Source: Acidobacteriota bacterium | GTDB lineage: Bacteria; Acidobacteriota; Terriglobia; Terriglobales; SCQP01 | Direction: 5' to 3' | Assembly (NCBI GenBank): GCA_021818955.1 | Contig: JAKASR010000013.1 | Coordinates: 1 to 64,000 of the forward strand | DNA length: 64,000 bases | Part shown: piece by piece, positions 2,381-38,616 of the stretch | Position numbering within the stretch: position 1 is the stretch's first letter | Layout: each line of letters begins with the position of its first letter | Program-made: the position numbers and the translations under genes | The notes under the pieces: model-generated | The model's input: only the letters and a program-made list of their open reading frames with translations | Told to the model about the DNA's origin: nothing | The model's database searches: none

Positions 2381-2557
2381 GCGGCACGGCCGCTTTTACT
2401 TTTAGGCGCGGACGCTTTCGCAAAGGTTCGGCCGAAACCAGAAGCATGGTGAATACTCATGGATGCCGGGCATTGCCGGGCGGAATGCTCGCGGAATTGC
2501 CGGGCTTGCCGGGCGCGATTCCGTTCATGCTTCGCGCAAATTTCAGAATTTAACGCT
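2381..2557 (+). repeat. CPIE copy 2, between split gene and rimO
   Basis: Left end is intact; the middle has GCCGGGCATTGCCGGGC and related inverted repeats; the right end is degenerate (CAGAATTTAACGCTCG). Its TTAACG motif supplies the rimO stop codon (2550-2552, read on the minus strand), so element and gene end overlap. Confidence 0.75.
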
Positions 2558-4079
2558 CGACCACGCGAGCGACCAGATCGTAGTCGTGGGCGGCGGTGAT
2601 TTCGGCGGTGACGAAGCTGCCGATGGCGGGGGGCGGGGCGGGCGAGCCGCCGGGGCGCAGGCCGAAGTCGTTGAGCAGGACTTTGCCGTCGATGCCGGGG
2701 GCCTGGCCTTCGAGGCGGGCCTGCCAGAGCAGGGCGCTTTCTTCGGCCGGACCTTCGACCAGCACCGTGGGGCGCGCGCCGAGGAGCGCGCGGCGGCGCC
2801 GGCGGGAGATTTTGCGCTGCAACTGCATGAGCTGGTCGCGGCGAGCTTCGGCCACCTCGGAGGGCACTTTGGCGTCGAGCGCGTGCGAGCGGCTGGTGGA
2901 TTCATCCGAGTAGGCGAAGACGCCGAGCCAATCGAGCTCGGCGGCCTGTATAAAGTCGCAGAGGATTTTATGGTCGTCTTCGGTTTCGCCGGGAAAGCCG
3001 GTAATGAACGTCGAGCGCAGGGCGACGCCGGGGATGGCGGCGCGGATGCGGGCGAGGAGCTGGAGGAAATGGTCGCCGGAGCCGCCGCGGCGCATGCGCG
3101 CCAAGACTTGGCCGCTGGCGTGCTGCAAGGGCATATCGACATAGCGGCAGAGGCGGGGATGGGCGGCGAGGGTATCGAGCAATGGCGGGGTGACGCGGTT
3201 GGGATAGAAGTAGAGGGTACGGATCCAGACCAATTCTTCGATGGCGGCGAGGCGGGCGAGCAGTTGCGCCAGGCCGTGGCGGAGTCCGAGGTCGGCGCCG
3301 TAGCTGGTGGTATCCTGCCCGACGAGCACCAGCTCGCGGGCTCCGGCGGCGGCGAGGCGGCGGGCTTCGGCCTCGACCGAAGCCAGGGCGCGGCTGCGGA
3401 AGGCGCCGCGGTAGTGGGGGATAACGCAAAACGAGCAGGGGTGGTCGCAGCCCTCGGCGATTTTGAGGTAGGCGGTATGGCGGGCGGTGGTAAGCAGCCG
3501 CGGGGTGCGGTCGTCGTAGAGATAGCCGGGCTGAGCGGCTTGGGCGGCCGGCGGCATAACACGGCCGTTAACGCTTAGGGAGGGAGACGCAGCCGGCGGC
3601 GGGGAGGGCAGCACGGGCAGAGCGGCGCCGGCGGTGCGCGGCCGGCTGAAAGCGGGCGCGGATGCCAGCGCGGCCGCGGTTTCATGCTTTACGGCCGGAT
3701 TGATCGCAGTAGCCTCGGCAACACGCGGCGAGTTGCCGGCGACGGCGGCCAGGATTTGGGGCAGCTCGTTGGTGCCGACGAGGGCATCCACTTCGGGAAT
3801 TTCGGCCTGAATCTGCTGGCGAAAGCGCTCGACCAGGCAGCCGGCGACGATGAGGCGGCGGGCGCGTCCGCTGCGCTTGAGCTGGGCCAGCTCGAGGATG
3901 GCGTCGACGGATTCCTGCTGGGCGCTTTCGATAAAGGCGCAAGTGTTGACGACCAGCACCTCGGCATCTTCGGCGCGGGGGGTGAGGGTGTGTCCCTGCT
4001 CGCCGAGCAGGCCCATCATGACTTCCGAATCGACCAGGTTTTTGGGGCAGCCGAGGCTGATAAATCCAACTTTAGGCAT
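2550..4079 (-). CDS. rimO: Ribosomal protein S12 methylthiotransferase RimO
   Basis: RimO adds a methylthio group to an aspartate of ribosomal protein S12 using two iron-sulfur clusters and S-adenosylmethionine. The N-terminal domain has the three cluster cysteines Cys11 (SLGCPKN), Cys47 (VNTCAF) and Cys81 (VAGCL). The radical SAM motif is CDHPCSFC (Cys211, 215, 218), and a TRAM-like domain ends the protein. At 509 residues it is longer than the usual 430-450. The excess is an Ala/Pro-rich insert at about residues 120-183, between the two conserved domains. Residues SLSVNGR in that insert are encoded by the right end of the CPIE repeat (3562-3577). All catalytic cysteines remain, so the enzyme is probably active. 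Confidence 0.93.
   Translation of the reverse strand: MPKVGFISLGCPKNLVDSEVMMGLLGEQGHTLTPRAEDAEVLVVNTCAFIESAQQESVDAILELAQLKRSGRARRLIVAGCLVERFRQQIQAEIPEVDALVGTNELPQILAAVAGNSPRVAEATAINPAVKHETAAALASAPAFSRPRTAGAALPVLPSPPPAASPSLSVNGRVMPPAAQAAQPGYLYDDRTPRLLTTARHTAYLKIAEGCDHPCSFCVIPHYRGAFRSRALASVEAEARRLAAAGARELVLVGQDTTSYGADLGLRHGLAQLLARLAAIEELVWIRTLYFYPNRVTPPLLDTLAAHPRLCRYVDMPLQHASGQVLARMRRGGSGDHFLQLLARIRAAIPGVALRSTFITGFPGETEDDHKILCDFIQAAELDWLGVFAYSDESTSRSHALDAKVPSEVAEARRDQLMQLQRKISRRRRRALLGARPTVLVEGPAEESALLWQARLEGQAPGIDGKVLLNDFGLRPGGSPAPPPAIGSFVTAEITAAHDYDLVARVVER
3562..3577 (+). repeat. CPIE right-end fragment within rimO
   Basis: CGGCCGTTAACGCTTA is the exact CPIE right end, here inside the rimO coding sequence and translated on the minus strand as part of SLSVNGR. 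The rest of the element is missing or unrecognisable. Confidence 0.7.
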
Positions 4080-4202: not shown

Positions 4203-4391
4203 AGCAGGCTGCAGACAATTTCTCCGATATTGATAATGCCGCAGGCAATTTCTCCGAAATTGACTGGCCGCAGGCAATTTCTCCGAAATTGACTGGCCGC
4301 AGGCAATTTCTCCGAAATTGATAATGCTTCAGGCAATTTCTCCGAAATTGCCATAGACGAAAACTGCGGTCCGACTCGGCCGTTAGCGTTT
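4203..4391 (+). repeat. CPIE copy 3, right half with five palindromes
   Basis: The left end is missing. Five tandem units of about 30 bp each hold CAATTTCTCCGAAATTG (the first one mutated), followed by GACGAAAACTGCGG and a right end with one change (CGGCCGTTAGCG). It fills most of the gap between rimO and the PrsW-like gene. Confidence 0.85.
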
Positions 4392-4502: not shown

Positions 4503-5690
4503 ATGTTTTGTCCGCATTGCGGAAACCAGTATGCCGTCCAACAGCGCTTTTGCACTCACTGCGGCGGGGCCATGGCCGCTACCCCGCCCGCGGGCGCGGC
4601 AGGCTTGCCCATGGCGGCGGCAGCGGCGGCGGCGGCGGAACATGAGCATAAAAGCCTGGTCGGCGGCGTAAGCTCGCGCATCAACCGCCTGGCCGGCACG
4701 GAAAAGCTGGAAGGCTTCAGCCTGAAGGAGATGTTTTCGCAGGTCTTCAAAAAGCGCACGCCGGAGGAGGTGGAAGATTACCTGATCGCCGGCACGCTGA
4801 AGACCACGCCCAACATCACGGATGTACAGACCGGCTGGCCGCATCCGTGGCTGTTCGCGCGGGTGCTGGGGCTGCTGGTGCTGGCCTATTTCGGGCTGGT
4901 GATGGGTTGGAACCAATTCCAGAACACCAACTTCATTCCCGGCATCATGCTGCTGGGCGACTTTGCCGTGCCGCTGGCGATGGTGGTGCTGTTTTACGAG
5001 TTGAACACGCCGCGCAACGTATCGCTGCCCAAGCTGGCGCAGTTGTTCCTTACCGGGGCGGTGCTGTCGCTGTTTATCGCCATGATCGGGTACACGGATA
5101 TCGGCGGGGCGCTGAAATGGATGGGCGATTCGCAAGCGGGCATCGTGGAAGAACTGGCCAAACTGGCGGCGGTCATACTGATCGCGCGCAGCATACGGTA
5201 CAAATACATATTGAACGGACTGTTGGTAGGCGCCACGGTGGGGGCGGGATTTGCCGCCTTTGAGAGCGCCGGCTATGCGTTCACCGCCGTTTTCCAAACC
5301 CACAATGCGAATTTCATGCTGCAGGAAATCCAGATGCGCGCCATGTGGGCGCCTTTCGGCCATATCGCCTGGACGGCGATCGCCGCCGCCGCCTTGTGGC
5401 GGGCCAAGGGGGAAGCCGCCTTCCATTTGGGCGTGCTGAAAAACGGGGCTTTCTGGCGTACCATGCTGATTCCCATGGGCCTGCACGCGTTATGGGATTT
5501 TTATCCGCAATGGCCAGTCTTCGTGGCCGCGGGCGTGGTGGGCTATTTCGTCATTTTCGGGCTGGTGCAGCAGGGGCTACACCAGGTGCGCGACGACCAG
5601 AAGTGGCAATTGAGCGAGCAGTTGAGCCAATTGCAAGCGGCGCCGGCGGGACTGACGGCGGCAGCGGGAAGCGGCGCGGAAGGGGCGTAA
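4503..5690 (+). CDS. PrsW-family intramembrane metalloprotease with zinc ribbon
   Basis: A 395-residue membrane protein. Residues 3-20 form a zinc ribbon (CPHC and CTHC), then an Ala-rich linker and an amphipathic region to about residue 110. At least seven hydrophobic segments follow. PrsW motifs are visible: VEELAK at 215-220, AFESAGYAF at about 252-260, GHIAW near 286 and GLHALWDF near 326. In Bacillus PrsW cleaves an anti-sigma factor; the substrate here is unknown. I chose ATG 4503 because CAGGAGAAA lies 9 bases upstream and the zinc ribbon starts at once. No sigma/anti-sigma pair is adjacent. The stop is followed within 10 bp by heptanucleotide array 2. Confidence 0.85.
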   Translation: MFCPHCGNQYAVQQRFCTHCGGAMAATPPAGAAGLPMAAAAAAAAEHEHKSLVGGVSSRINRLAGTEKLEGFSLKEMFSQVFKKRTPEEVEDYLIAGTLKTTPNITDVQTGWPHPWLFARVLGLLVLAYFGLVMGWNQFQNTNFIPGIMLLGDFAVPLAMVVLFYELNTPRNVSLPKLAQLFLTGAVLSLFIAMIGYTDIGGALKWMGDSQAGIVEELAKLAAVILIARSIRYKYILNGLLVGATVGAGFAAFESAGYAFTAVFQTHNANFMLQEIQMRAMWAPFGHIAWTAIAAAALWRAKGEAAFHLGVLKNGAFWRTMLIPMGLHALWDFYPQWPVFVAAGVVGYFVIFGLVQQGLHQVRDDQKWQLSEQLSQLQAAPAGLTAAAGSGAEGA

Positions 5691-5885
5691 GGCTAGGGAA
5701 GGCGCAGAGCGCAAAGCGCAGAGCGCAAAGCGCAGAGCGCAAAGCGCAGAGCGCAAAGCGCAGAGCGCAAAGCGCAGAGCGCAAGGCGCAGAGCGCAAAG
5801 CGCAGAGCGCAAGGCGCAGAGCGCAGGGCCAGAGCGCAGGGCGCAGAGTGCAGAGCGCAGAGCGCAGAGCACAGAGCACAGAGCC

Positions 5886-5945
5886 AGAATTGATCTGGGC
5901 GCAGCCCGCAAGCGGGCTGCTTTCCACGGAAGGAAAAAGCAGAAA
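5886..5945 (+). repeat. 60-bp stem-loop module, copy 1
   Basis: Contains GCAGCCCGCAAGCGGGCTGC (9-bp stem) followed by TTTCCACGGAAGGAAAAAGC. The segment CTGCTTT can also pair with AAAGCAG downstream, so two alternative hairpins are possible. Confidence 0.85.
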
Positions 5946-6022
5946 GCGCAGAGCGCAAGGCGCAGAGCGCAGGGCCAGAGCGCAGGGCGCAGAGCACAGG
6001 GCACAGAGCACAGAGCACAGAG

Positions 6023-6083
6023 CCAGAATTGATCTGGGCGCAGCCCGCAAGCGGGCTGCTTTCCACGGAAGGAAAAAGCAGAA
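6023..6083 (+). repeat. 60-bp stem-loop module, copy 2
   Basis: Nearly identical to module copy 1, including the GAATTGATCTGGGCGCAG entry sequence. Confidence 0.85.
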
Positions 6084-6147
6084 AGCGCAGAGCGCAAAGC
6101 GCAGAGCGCAAGGCACCGAGCGCAGGGCTCAGAGCACAGAGCGCAGA

Positions 6148-6210
6148 GCCTGAATTTGTCTGGGCGCAGCCCGCAAGCGGGCTGCTTTCCACGGAAGGAA
6201 AAAGCAGAAA
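6148..6210 (+). repeat. 60-bp stem-loop module, copy 3
   Basis: Same stem-loops; the entry sequence is GAATTTGTCTGGGCGCAG, matching the modules of array 3 more closely than copies 1 and 2. Confidence 0.85.
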
Positions 6211-6410
6211 GCGCAGAGCGCAAAGCGCAGAGCGCAAGGCGCAGAGCGCAAAGCACAGGGCGCAAAGCGCAGGGCGCAAGGCAAAGAGCGCAGAGCGCAA
6301 AGCGCAGAGCGCAAAGCGCAGAGCGCAGAGTGCAGAGCGCAGGGCGCAAGGCTCAGGGCACAGAGCTCAAGGCGCAAAGCGCAGGGCGCAAGGCAAAGAG
6401 CGCAGAGCGC

Positions 6411-6701
6411 ATTAGGCGCTGACGCTTTCGCCAAGGTCCGGCCGAAACCGGACGCATGGCGAATATTCATGGATGCCGGGCATGGCCAGCGCAATTCCTG
6501 CGGAATTGCCGGCTTGCTTGGCGCAATTCCTGCGGAATTGCTTGGCAATGTCGTTCATAGGCGCGGGACCTAACCGGAACCCGGCGCGAAACGGCCTGCG
6601 AGCATGACTAAAGGCAATTTCTCTGAAATTGAGCAGGCTGGAGGCAATTTCTTCGAAATTGCCAAGGACGAAAACTGCTGCCCGACTCGGCCGTTAACGC
6701 T
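6411..6701 (+). repeat. CPIE copy 4, long form
   Basis: The first bases of the left end are replaced by the heptamer array. The body contains TCCGGCCGAAACCGGA, two GCAATTCCTGCGGAATTGC palindromes, a GGCGCGGGACC/CCCGGCGC stem, two CAATTTCTYYGAAATTG palindromes and the canonical right end. It is one of the most complete long copies. Confidence 0.9.
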
Positions 6702-9282: not shown

Positions 9283-9588
9283 GCGGCACGGCGGCTTTTA
9301 CTTTTAGGCGCTGACGCTTTCGCAAAGATCCGGCCGAAGCCGGACACATGGCGAATACTCATGGCTGCCGGGCATGGCCGGGCGCAATGCCGGCGGAATT
9401 GCTTGGTATTGTCGTTCATAGGCGCGGGACCTAACCGGAACCCCGCGCTGCGGCCTGCGGGCATGGCTGCAGGCAATTGCTTCGAAATTGAGCATGCTTC
9501 AGGCAATTTCTTCGAAATTGAAAATGTTTAAGCAATTTCTTCGAAATTGCCAATGACGAAAACTGCTGCCCGATTCGGCCGTTAACGC
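9283..9588 (+). repeat. CPIE copy 6, long form
   Basis: Both ends are present (left end GCGGCACGGCGGC carries one change). Three CAATTTCTTCGAAATTG-type palindromes are visible plus a related CAATTTCATTAAAATTG just outside at 9263. It fills the whole gap between the isomerase-like gene and the next gene. Confidence 0.9.
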
Positions 9589-11014: not shown

Positions 11015-11291
11015 GCGGCACGGCCGCTTTTACTTTTAGGCGCTGACGCTTTCGCAATGATCCGGCCGAAACCGGACGCTTCGTTAATAGGCGCGGGACC
11101 TAAAAGGAACCCCGCGCGAAAGCGGCCGGCGGGCATCGCTTGAGGCAATTTCTTCGAAATTGCGCAGGCTTGAGGCAATTTCTCCGAAATTGCGCAGGCT
11201 TGAGGCAATTTCTCCGAAATTGAAAATGTTCAGGCAATTTCTCCGAAATTGCCAATGACGAACCCTGCACTCCAACGCGGCCATTAACGCT
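11015..11291 (+). repeat. CPIE copy 8 with four palindromes
   Basis: Canonical left end, the GGCGCGGGACC/CCCCGCGC stem, then four tandem units of about 30 bp each holding CAATTTCTYCGAAATTG, and a slightly altered right end (GCGGCCATTAACGCT). It separates the oxidase subunit and FG-GAP genes. Confidence 0.9.
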
Positions 11292-16532: not shown

Positions 16533-16903
16533 GCGGCACAGCCGCTTATATTTTTAGGCACCGACGCTTGCGTAATGGTCCGGCCGAAGCCGGACGCATG
16601 GCGAATACTCCTGGCTGCCGGGCATTGCCGGGCGCAATTCCCGCGGAATTGCCGGCTGGCTTGATGCAATTCCTGCGGAATTGCTTGGTATCGTTGTTAT
16701 TAGGCGCGTGCTCTAACCGGAACCCCGCGCGAAAGCGGCCTGCGGGCATGGCTTGAGGCAATTTCTTCGAAATTGAGCAGGCTGAAGGCAATTTCTCCGA
16801 AATTGAGCATGCTCAGGCAATTTCTCCGAAATTGAGCATGCTCAGGCAATTTCTCCGAAATTGCCATTGACGAAAACTGCGGTCCGACTCGGCCGTTAAC
16901 GCT
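16533..16903 (+). repeat. CPIE copy 10, longest form
   Basis: Contains nearly every module: left end (GCGGCACAGCCGCTTATAT), CCGGCCGAAGCCGG stem, GCAATTCCCGCGGAATTGC and GCAATTCCTGCGGAATTGC palindromes, the GGCGCGTG...CCCCGCGC region, four CAATTTCTYCGAAATTG units and the right end. It fills the uvrB-proS gap. Confidence 0.92.
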
Positions 16904-38511: not shown

Positions 38512-38616
38512 GCGGCTCGGCCGCGCTTAGTTTGCGGCTCGACCGCTTCGGCAAAATTGCCCATGACATCCACCGCGATCCGACTCGGCCGTTAACGCTT
38601 CTCGGCCGTTAACGCT
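38512..38616 (+). repeat. CPIE copy 19, with a doubled right end
   Basis: Left end GCGGCTCGGCCGCGCTTAGT, a CGGCTCGACCGC repeat, CAAAATTGCCCATGACATCC, then CTCGGCCGTTAACGCTT twice in tandem. The second copy ends 2 bp before the next glycosyltransferase ATG. Confidence 0.8.

Follow-up and report, generated by a model that had tools for sequence, protein, structure and literature searches.

An in-frame fragment of a dispersed repeat in the variable linker of an acidobacterial RimO

The rimO gene of an Acidobacteriota bacterium contains, as part of its coding sequence, a short piece of a dispersed repeat named CPIE. The preferred explanation, given a probability of about 0.85, is that a short terminal CPIE fragment sits in a tolerant linker of RimO and is kept as neutral filler, and that the linker is an older spacer which has caught repeats repeatedly. 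In this model, the fragment either was inserted into the disordered linker that connects the MTTase and radical SAM domains or is a remnant left there. It would have kept the reading frame and been carried along as the filler peptide SLSVNGR. The linker would serve as a tether joining two intact domains, so that its length and sequence matter little and many in-frame sequences are tolerated. Insertions that keep the frame would survive and others would be lost, and different repeats may have been caught in this way several times in related bacteria.

The stretch of DNA that was analysed, referred to here as the window, is 64,000 nucleotides long and is part of contig C14 in a 3.8-Mb genome (G000). 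The gene is a member of RimO by sequence family, domain order and fold. The RimO equivalog profile TIGR01125 matches it over its full length (residues 3-503) with 450.3 bits, compared with a cut-off of 356.95. The best fold match of the predicted core, the top match alone being used, is the RimO structure 4jc0 (Z 40.6, rmsd 2.0, 420 aligned). Six cysteines (C11, C47, C81, C211, C215 and C218) are invariant across 38 aligned RimO proteins; these are presumably the cluster ligands, three of them N-terminal and three in the radical SAM domain. The RimO of a same-genus genome (G001) is 83% identical to that of the window. Among proteins from titled records the closest is the 70% identical RimO of L128, from an acidobacterial metagenome genome. 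RimO is probably made and active in this genome. A first-pass annotation of the window had described it as an essential-type enzyme, which is doubtful, since RimO is dispensable in E. coli. The features of the gene are collected in Table 1.

Table 1. Position of rimO, its domains and its linker features in the window.
Feature	Position	Strand	Basis
rimO, 30S ribosomal protein S12 methylthiotransferase (family assignment)	2550..4079	-	509 aa; TIGR01125 and fold match 4jc0
TRAM domain (TRAM_2), residues 434-507	2559..2780	-	Pfam PF18693, E 1.9e-12
Radical SAM domain, residues 207-376	2952..3461	-	Pfam PF04055, E 6.1e-20
Linker, residues 118-186, almost without counterpart in Thermotoga RimO	3522..3728	-	4jc0 alignment gap; no invariant column; low pLDDT
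Solo right end of dispersed element (CPIE); minus-strand reading SLSVNGR, residues 167-173	3562..3580	+	19 nt identity; 14-mer copy number
Some 20 additional residues (roughly 119-138) missing from same-genus RimO	3666..3725	-	alignment with G001
UPF0004 (MTTase) domain, N-terminal, residues 3-102	3774..4073	-	Pfam PF00919, E 6e-27

The linker is much longer than that of Thermotoga maritima RimO. In the alignment, 69 residues of the window protein (118-186) stand opposite nine residues (116-124) of the 4jc0 chain, which bears out the earlier estimate of about 60 extra residues between the first two domains. Between E105 and L187 there is no invariant column in the 38 aligned RimOs, and RimO alignments show a hypervariable linker bounded by invariant blocks on either side. 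In the predicted structure, pLDDT falls below 50 at residues 123-134 and 137-183, and SLSVNGR lies inside the second of these stretches. The model, which the first-pass annotation had proposed as a way to see whether the insert forms an external loop, thus predicts a disordered linker next to an intact core that matches the solved 4jc0.

Linker length can be compared among genomes by the spacing between GCPKN and the radical SAM cysteine motif. This spacing is 201 in the window, 175 in the same-genus genome and 152-166 in 12 further genomes of the same family. Over 122 distinct RimOs, drawn from a search for relatives and from the genome collection, it ranges from 140 to 297, with a median of 182.5. 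The genome collection is the source of all 24 proteins with a spacing below 150, and their titles, which do not place each of them in an order, include gp2 acidobacteria, Bryobacterales, Candidatus Acidiferrum and Terriglobia. At the same position, every one of the 13 other genomes of the family has a linker that is variable and mostly rich in Pro and Ala, with the element there in none of them. The insert as a whole is therefore not species-specific and recurs in relatives without the element, which is the outcome that the first-pass annotation had named as refuting its proposal; the peptide SLSVNGR does not recur in this way. Since it is order-wide, hypervariable and present in relatives that lack the element there, the long linker is not due to the element. 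It is an older, fast-changing spacer and an ordinary trait of the group.

The fragment itself reads CGGCCGTTAACGCTTAGGG on the plus strand. When the linker is compared with its own genome, these 19 bases are found unchanged at C46:23095-23113 and C17:12491-12509. The first-pass annotation had recognised 16 of them as the exact CPIE right end coding for SLSVNGR, so that its identification stands and is extended by three bases. The whole linker gives many further matches of about 23-24 bases at 91-92% identity, as well as several weak matches outside the repeat end. The sequence at rimO has the core of the right end, CGGCCGTTAACGCT, followed by TnnnG, and so includes both outer bases, T at +1 and G at +5. 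Upstream of it only 7 of 21 bases agree with the element, and no left end occurs within 450 bases. Because the upstream modules and the left end are absent, the fragment is a solo end and not a copy of the element.

The repeat end is in frame, with UPF0004 and Radical_SAM on either side and the frame open. Both the 14-base core and the peptide pattern S[VI]NGR are found in one of 124 RimO linkers (130 scanned loci minus 6 without a parsed RimO), namely that of the window. Part of a dispersed repeat has become rimO coding sequence without loss of the frame, and among the genomes examined only this one has it there. To this extent the proposal of the first-pass annotation was correct. A broader reading, in which the repeat accounts for the whole insert of about 60 residues, is not supported; the idea that all of this is element DNA was rejected, since in the own-genome search the linker matches element ends at the right-end part only. 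The restriction of the fragment to one genome and the predicted disorder suggest that it is neutral. The species is represented by one genome, and the 19 bases could be an assembly error, a rare allele or fixed.

The core is abundant in this genome, with 188 exact copies (99 and 89 on the two strands) against a single match to the reversed control pattern. The same-genus genome has five exact copies and two genomes of the same family have one each; the core is absent from the other 37 of 41 genomes, over all of which the reversed control finds five matches. Given five exact right ends in one genome and 188 in the other, either the element multiplied in the lineage of the window genome or it decayed in that of G001. 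Within the window, 20 matches with at most two mismatches are found, compared with 0.95 expected from shuffles. A search of the literature for CPIE returned nothing.

Copies of the right end were examined at 96 of the 188 sites, namely all of the 100 listed sites apart from four on contig C26 (the other 88 are unlisted). On the outer side of the core, position +1 is T in 85 of these and position +5 is G in 93. Most are preceded by the usual upstream sequence, GACGAAAACTGCTGTCCGACT. Eleven of the 96, rimO included and one indel-shifted copy excluded, are solo ends with little or no upstream sequence, and short fragments of the right end thus recur in the genome.

Several other repeat arrangements can be seen. 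At 38586-38616 of the window two right ends stand in tandem, 17 bases apart (38585/38602), the second being a solo end, and the solo end L093 is followed by the apparent start of another end. Four stretches of the window (4204-4350, 9462-9549, 11134-11251 and 16747-16863) hold tandem hairpin modules of 29-30 bases (CAATTTCTCCGAAATTG) within element copies, in varying numbers. Tandem-repeat arrays with spacings of 14 and 21 bases lie at 338-731 and 5600-6467; several of their frames are open, with CALRSALCALRFAL-like peptides. The orientation of right ends is clustered. All listed exact copies on C6 are on the plus strand and all those on C4, C13 and C22 on the minus strand, and the right ends in window positions 1800-52118 are nearly all plus. 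Replication strand was considered as a cause; GC skew, measured over 13 stretches, does not vary with the orientation.

A solo end may have reached rimO as such, or may be the remnant of a longer insertion that was trimmed later. The second route, in which a longer CPIE copy was inserted and then cut back by deletions to its right end, perhaps together with the private residues 119-138, is the strongest alternative, although it is unlikely. It would fit the upstream sequence that accompanies most examined copies. It would also fit the comparison with the same-genus RimO, relative to which the window protein has 26 extra residues, about 20 near 119-138 and about six around SLSVNGR, while the repeat end codes for about seven. 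The existence of solo ends elsewhere speaks against the need for trimming, and no other part of the element is clearly matched in the linker DNA. In the comparison of the linker with its own genome, no repeat match falls wholly within the 119-138 part at E <0.02. The extra stretch around SLSVNGR roughly equals the 19-base end in length, in a region aligned too loosely for a break point to be set. The linker has diverged so far from that of G001 that neither an empty site nor the exact limits of the insertion can be made out.

The presence of other repeats at the same place in other genomes supports the preferred explanation, capture in a tolerant linker. Such repeats were sought in linkers that had been picked because a motif had been seen in them by eye. 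Patterns taken from four linkers (G031, G032, G016 and G017) are found again in the respective genomes, where control matches are zero. The clearest case, stronger than that of the window, is G031. About 250 nt of its linker (query 126-377) have 70 other matches in the genome at 71-96% identity, and the next 1028 nt match only themselves. The repeat (L047:876-1127; G031:C3 73975-74226) is in frame in rimO, and the RimO frame is the only open one, the other five having stops. Of seven other copies aligning over at least 170 nt, six are interrupted by a stop in the frame corresponding to that of RimO, a rough count since indels can shift frames.

Further examples are found in G060 (locus L205, titled Terriglobus sp.), with 54 other matches centred on 34 nt (query 86-119), and in G016, where about 50 nt (query 188-242) have 40 other matches in their own genome. 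The linkers of L180, L189 and L193 are similar by motif alone. Not all linker growth can be ascribed to repeat capture, since the long linker of G033, which has no such motif, matches only itself in its genome. The chosen motifs occur in 10 of 124 linkers, L006 being judged a coincidence; the counts are post hoc, the motifs having been picked after they were sighted in some of the linkers. The 9-mer GGGTGCCCC also occurs six times elsewhere in genes, and the remaining motifs are confined to linkers.

At least three separate captures are claimed, one in G000, one in G016, and one in G031 together with L205; the number may be as high as five or six. Independence is judged by repeat type and place only. 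G031 and L205 are counted as one because they share the place and type of the insert and may descend from one event. The balance tips slightly towards the RimO linker being a recurrent acceptor in this order of Acidobacteria, in which different repeats were captured in frame independently, several times, and capture was one engine of linker growth from about 140 in other acidobacterial genomes to 152-297. Literature searches found nothing on RimO linkers, no description of repeats in RimO in titles or the beginnings of abstracts, and no printed case of different repeats recurring in one gene.

These other linkers also bear on whether the CPIE end is a functional DNA site, for instance for protein binding or recombination, that is kept for its role in DNA and is not filler. 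The recurrence of solo ends, their sharp limits and the strong clustering of end orientation by contig would suit such a site. Linkers holding other repeats would be unexpected for a site-specific role, and this explanation is improbable. To our knowledge no functional DNA site of this kind has been described. Still less probable is selection on the added residues for some new property of RimO, such as a ribosome contact or regulation. Parts of the linker are indeed conserved within the neighbouring family f2 (for example SRPEGDLRE..GRFSR), but SVNGR is confined to one of the 124 linkers and lies in a region predicted to be disordered and devoid of invariant columns. That an Ala/Pro-rich linker spelled the 19 bases by chance or codon use is hardly credible despite its high GC content and its several weak matches elsewhere, since the reversed control is so rare beside 188 element ends, the match extends to the outer T and G of the element, and its GTTAAC is AT-rich, unlike the remaining linker.

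Another reading, that coding capture of CPIE ends is as common as repeat capture in Rickettsia, was rejected. Among the 96 sites, 26 distinct ORFs of at least 190 aa cover a right end, and 20 of these were scanned. Nine of them matched Pfam, and the end falls between two domains in rimO alone; in the others it lies before, after or outside the domain match. Many of the ORFs covering right ends are probably over-long.

Rickettsia provides the best-known cases in which selfish or dispersed repeats have been captured as coding sequence. The Rickettsia palindromic elements (RPEs) are dispersed palindromic repeats found in frame in unrelated housekeeping genes; as described in PMC10969869, they are about 150 bp long, each codes for a conserved peptide, and in R. 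conorii close to half of them are located in ORFs. The rimO fragment resembles them as a dispersed repeat in frame within a conserved gene. It differs in having 19 bases in place of some 150 bp coding for a conserved peptide. A second precedent is the intragenic GTAG/CGTC REPs, short dispersed repeats in coding genes, for which insertion in flexible linkers or loops is proposed by the authors of PMC3733652. According to that article, REPs form stem-loops carrying a GTAG or CGTC tag, and many lie in replication and repair genes; RimO and MiaB do not occur in its main text. Much as with RPEs and intragenic REPs, the RimO linker seems to take in repeats recurrently and neutrally. The rimO fragment is much shorter than either and is otherwise of the same, precedented kind.

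Taken alone, the window presents a small matter of about seven filler residues. If the RimO linker does accept repeats recurrently, one housekeeping gene taking different repeats in different genera would amount to a replicated natural experiment. Such an experiment would address the rate at which repeats enter genes, the purging of those that break the frame, and the growth of disordered linkers.
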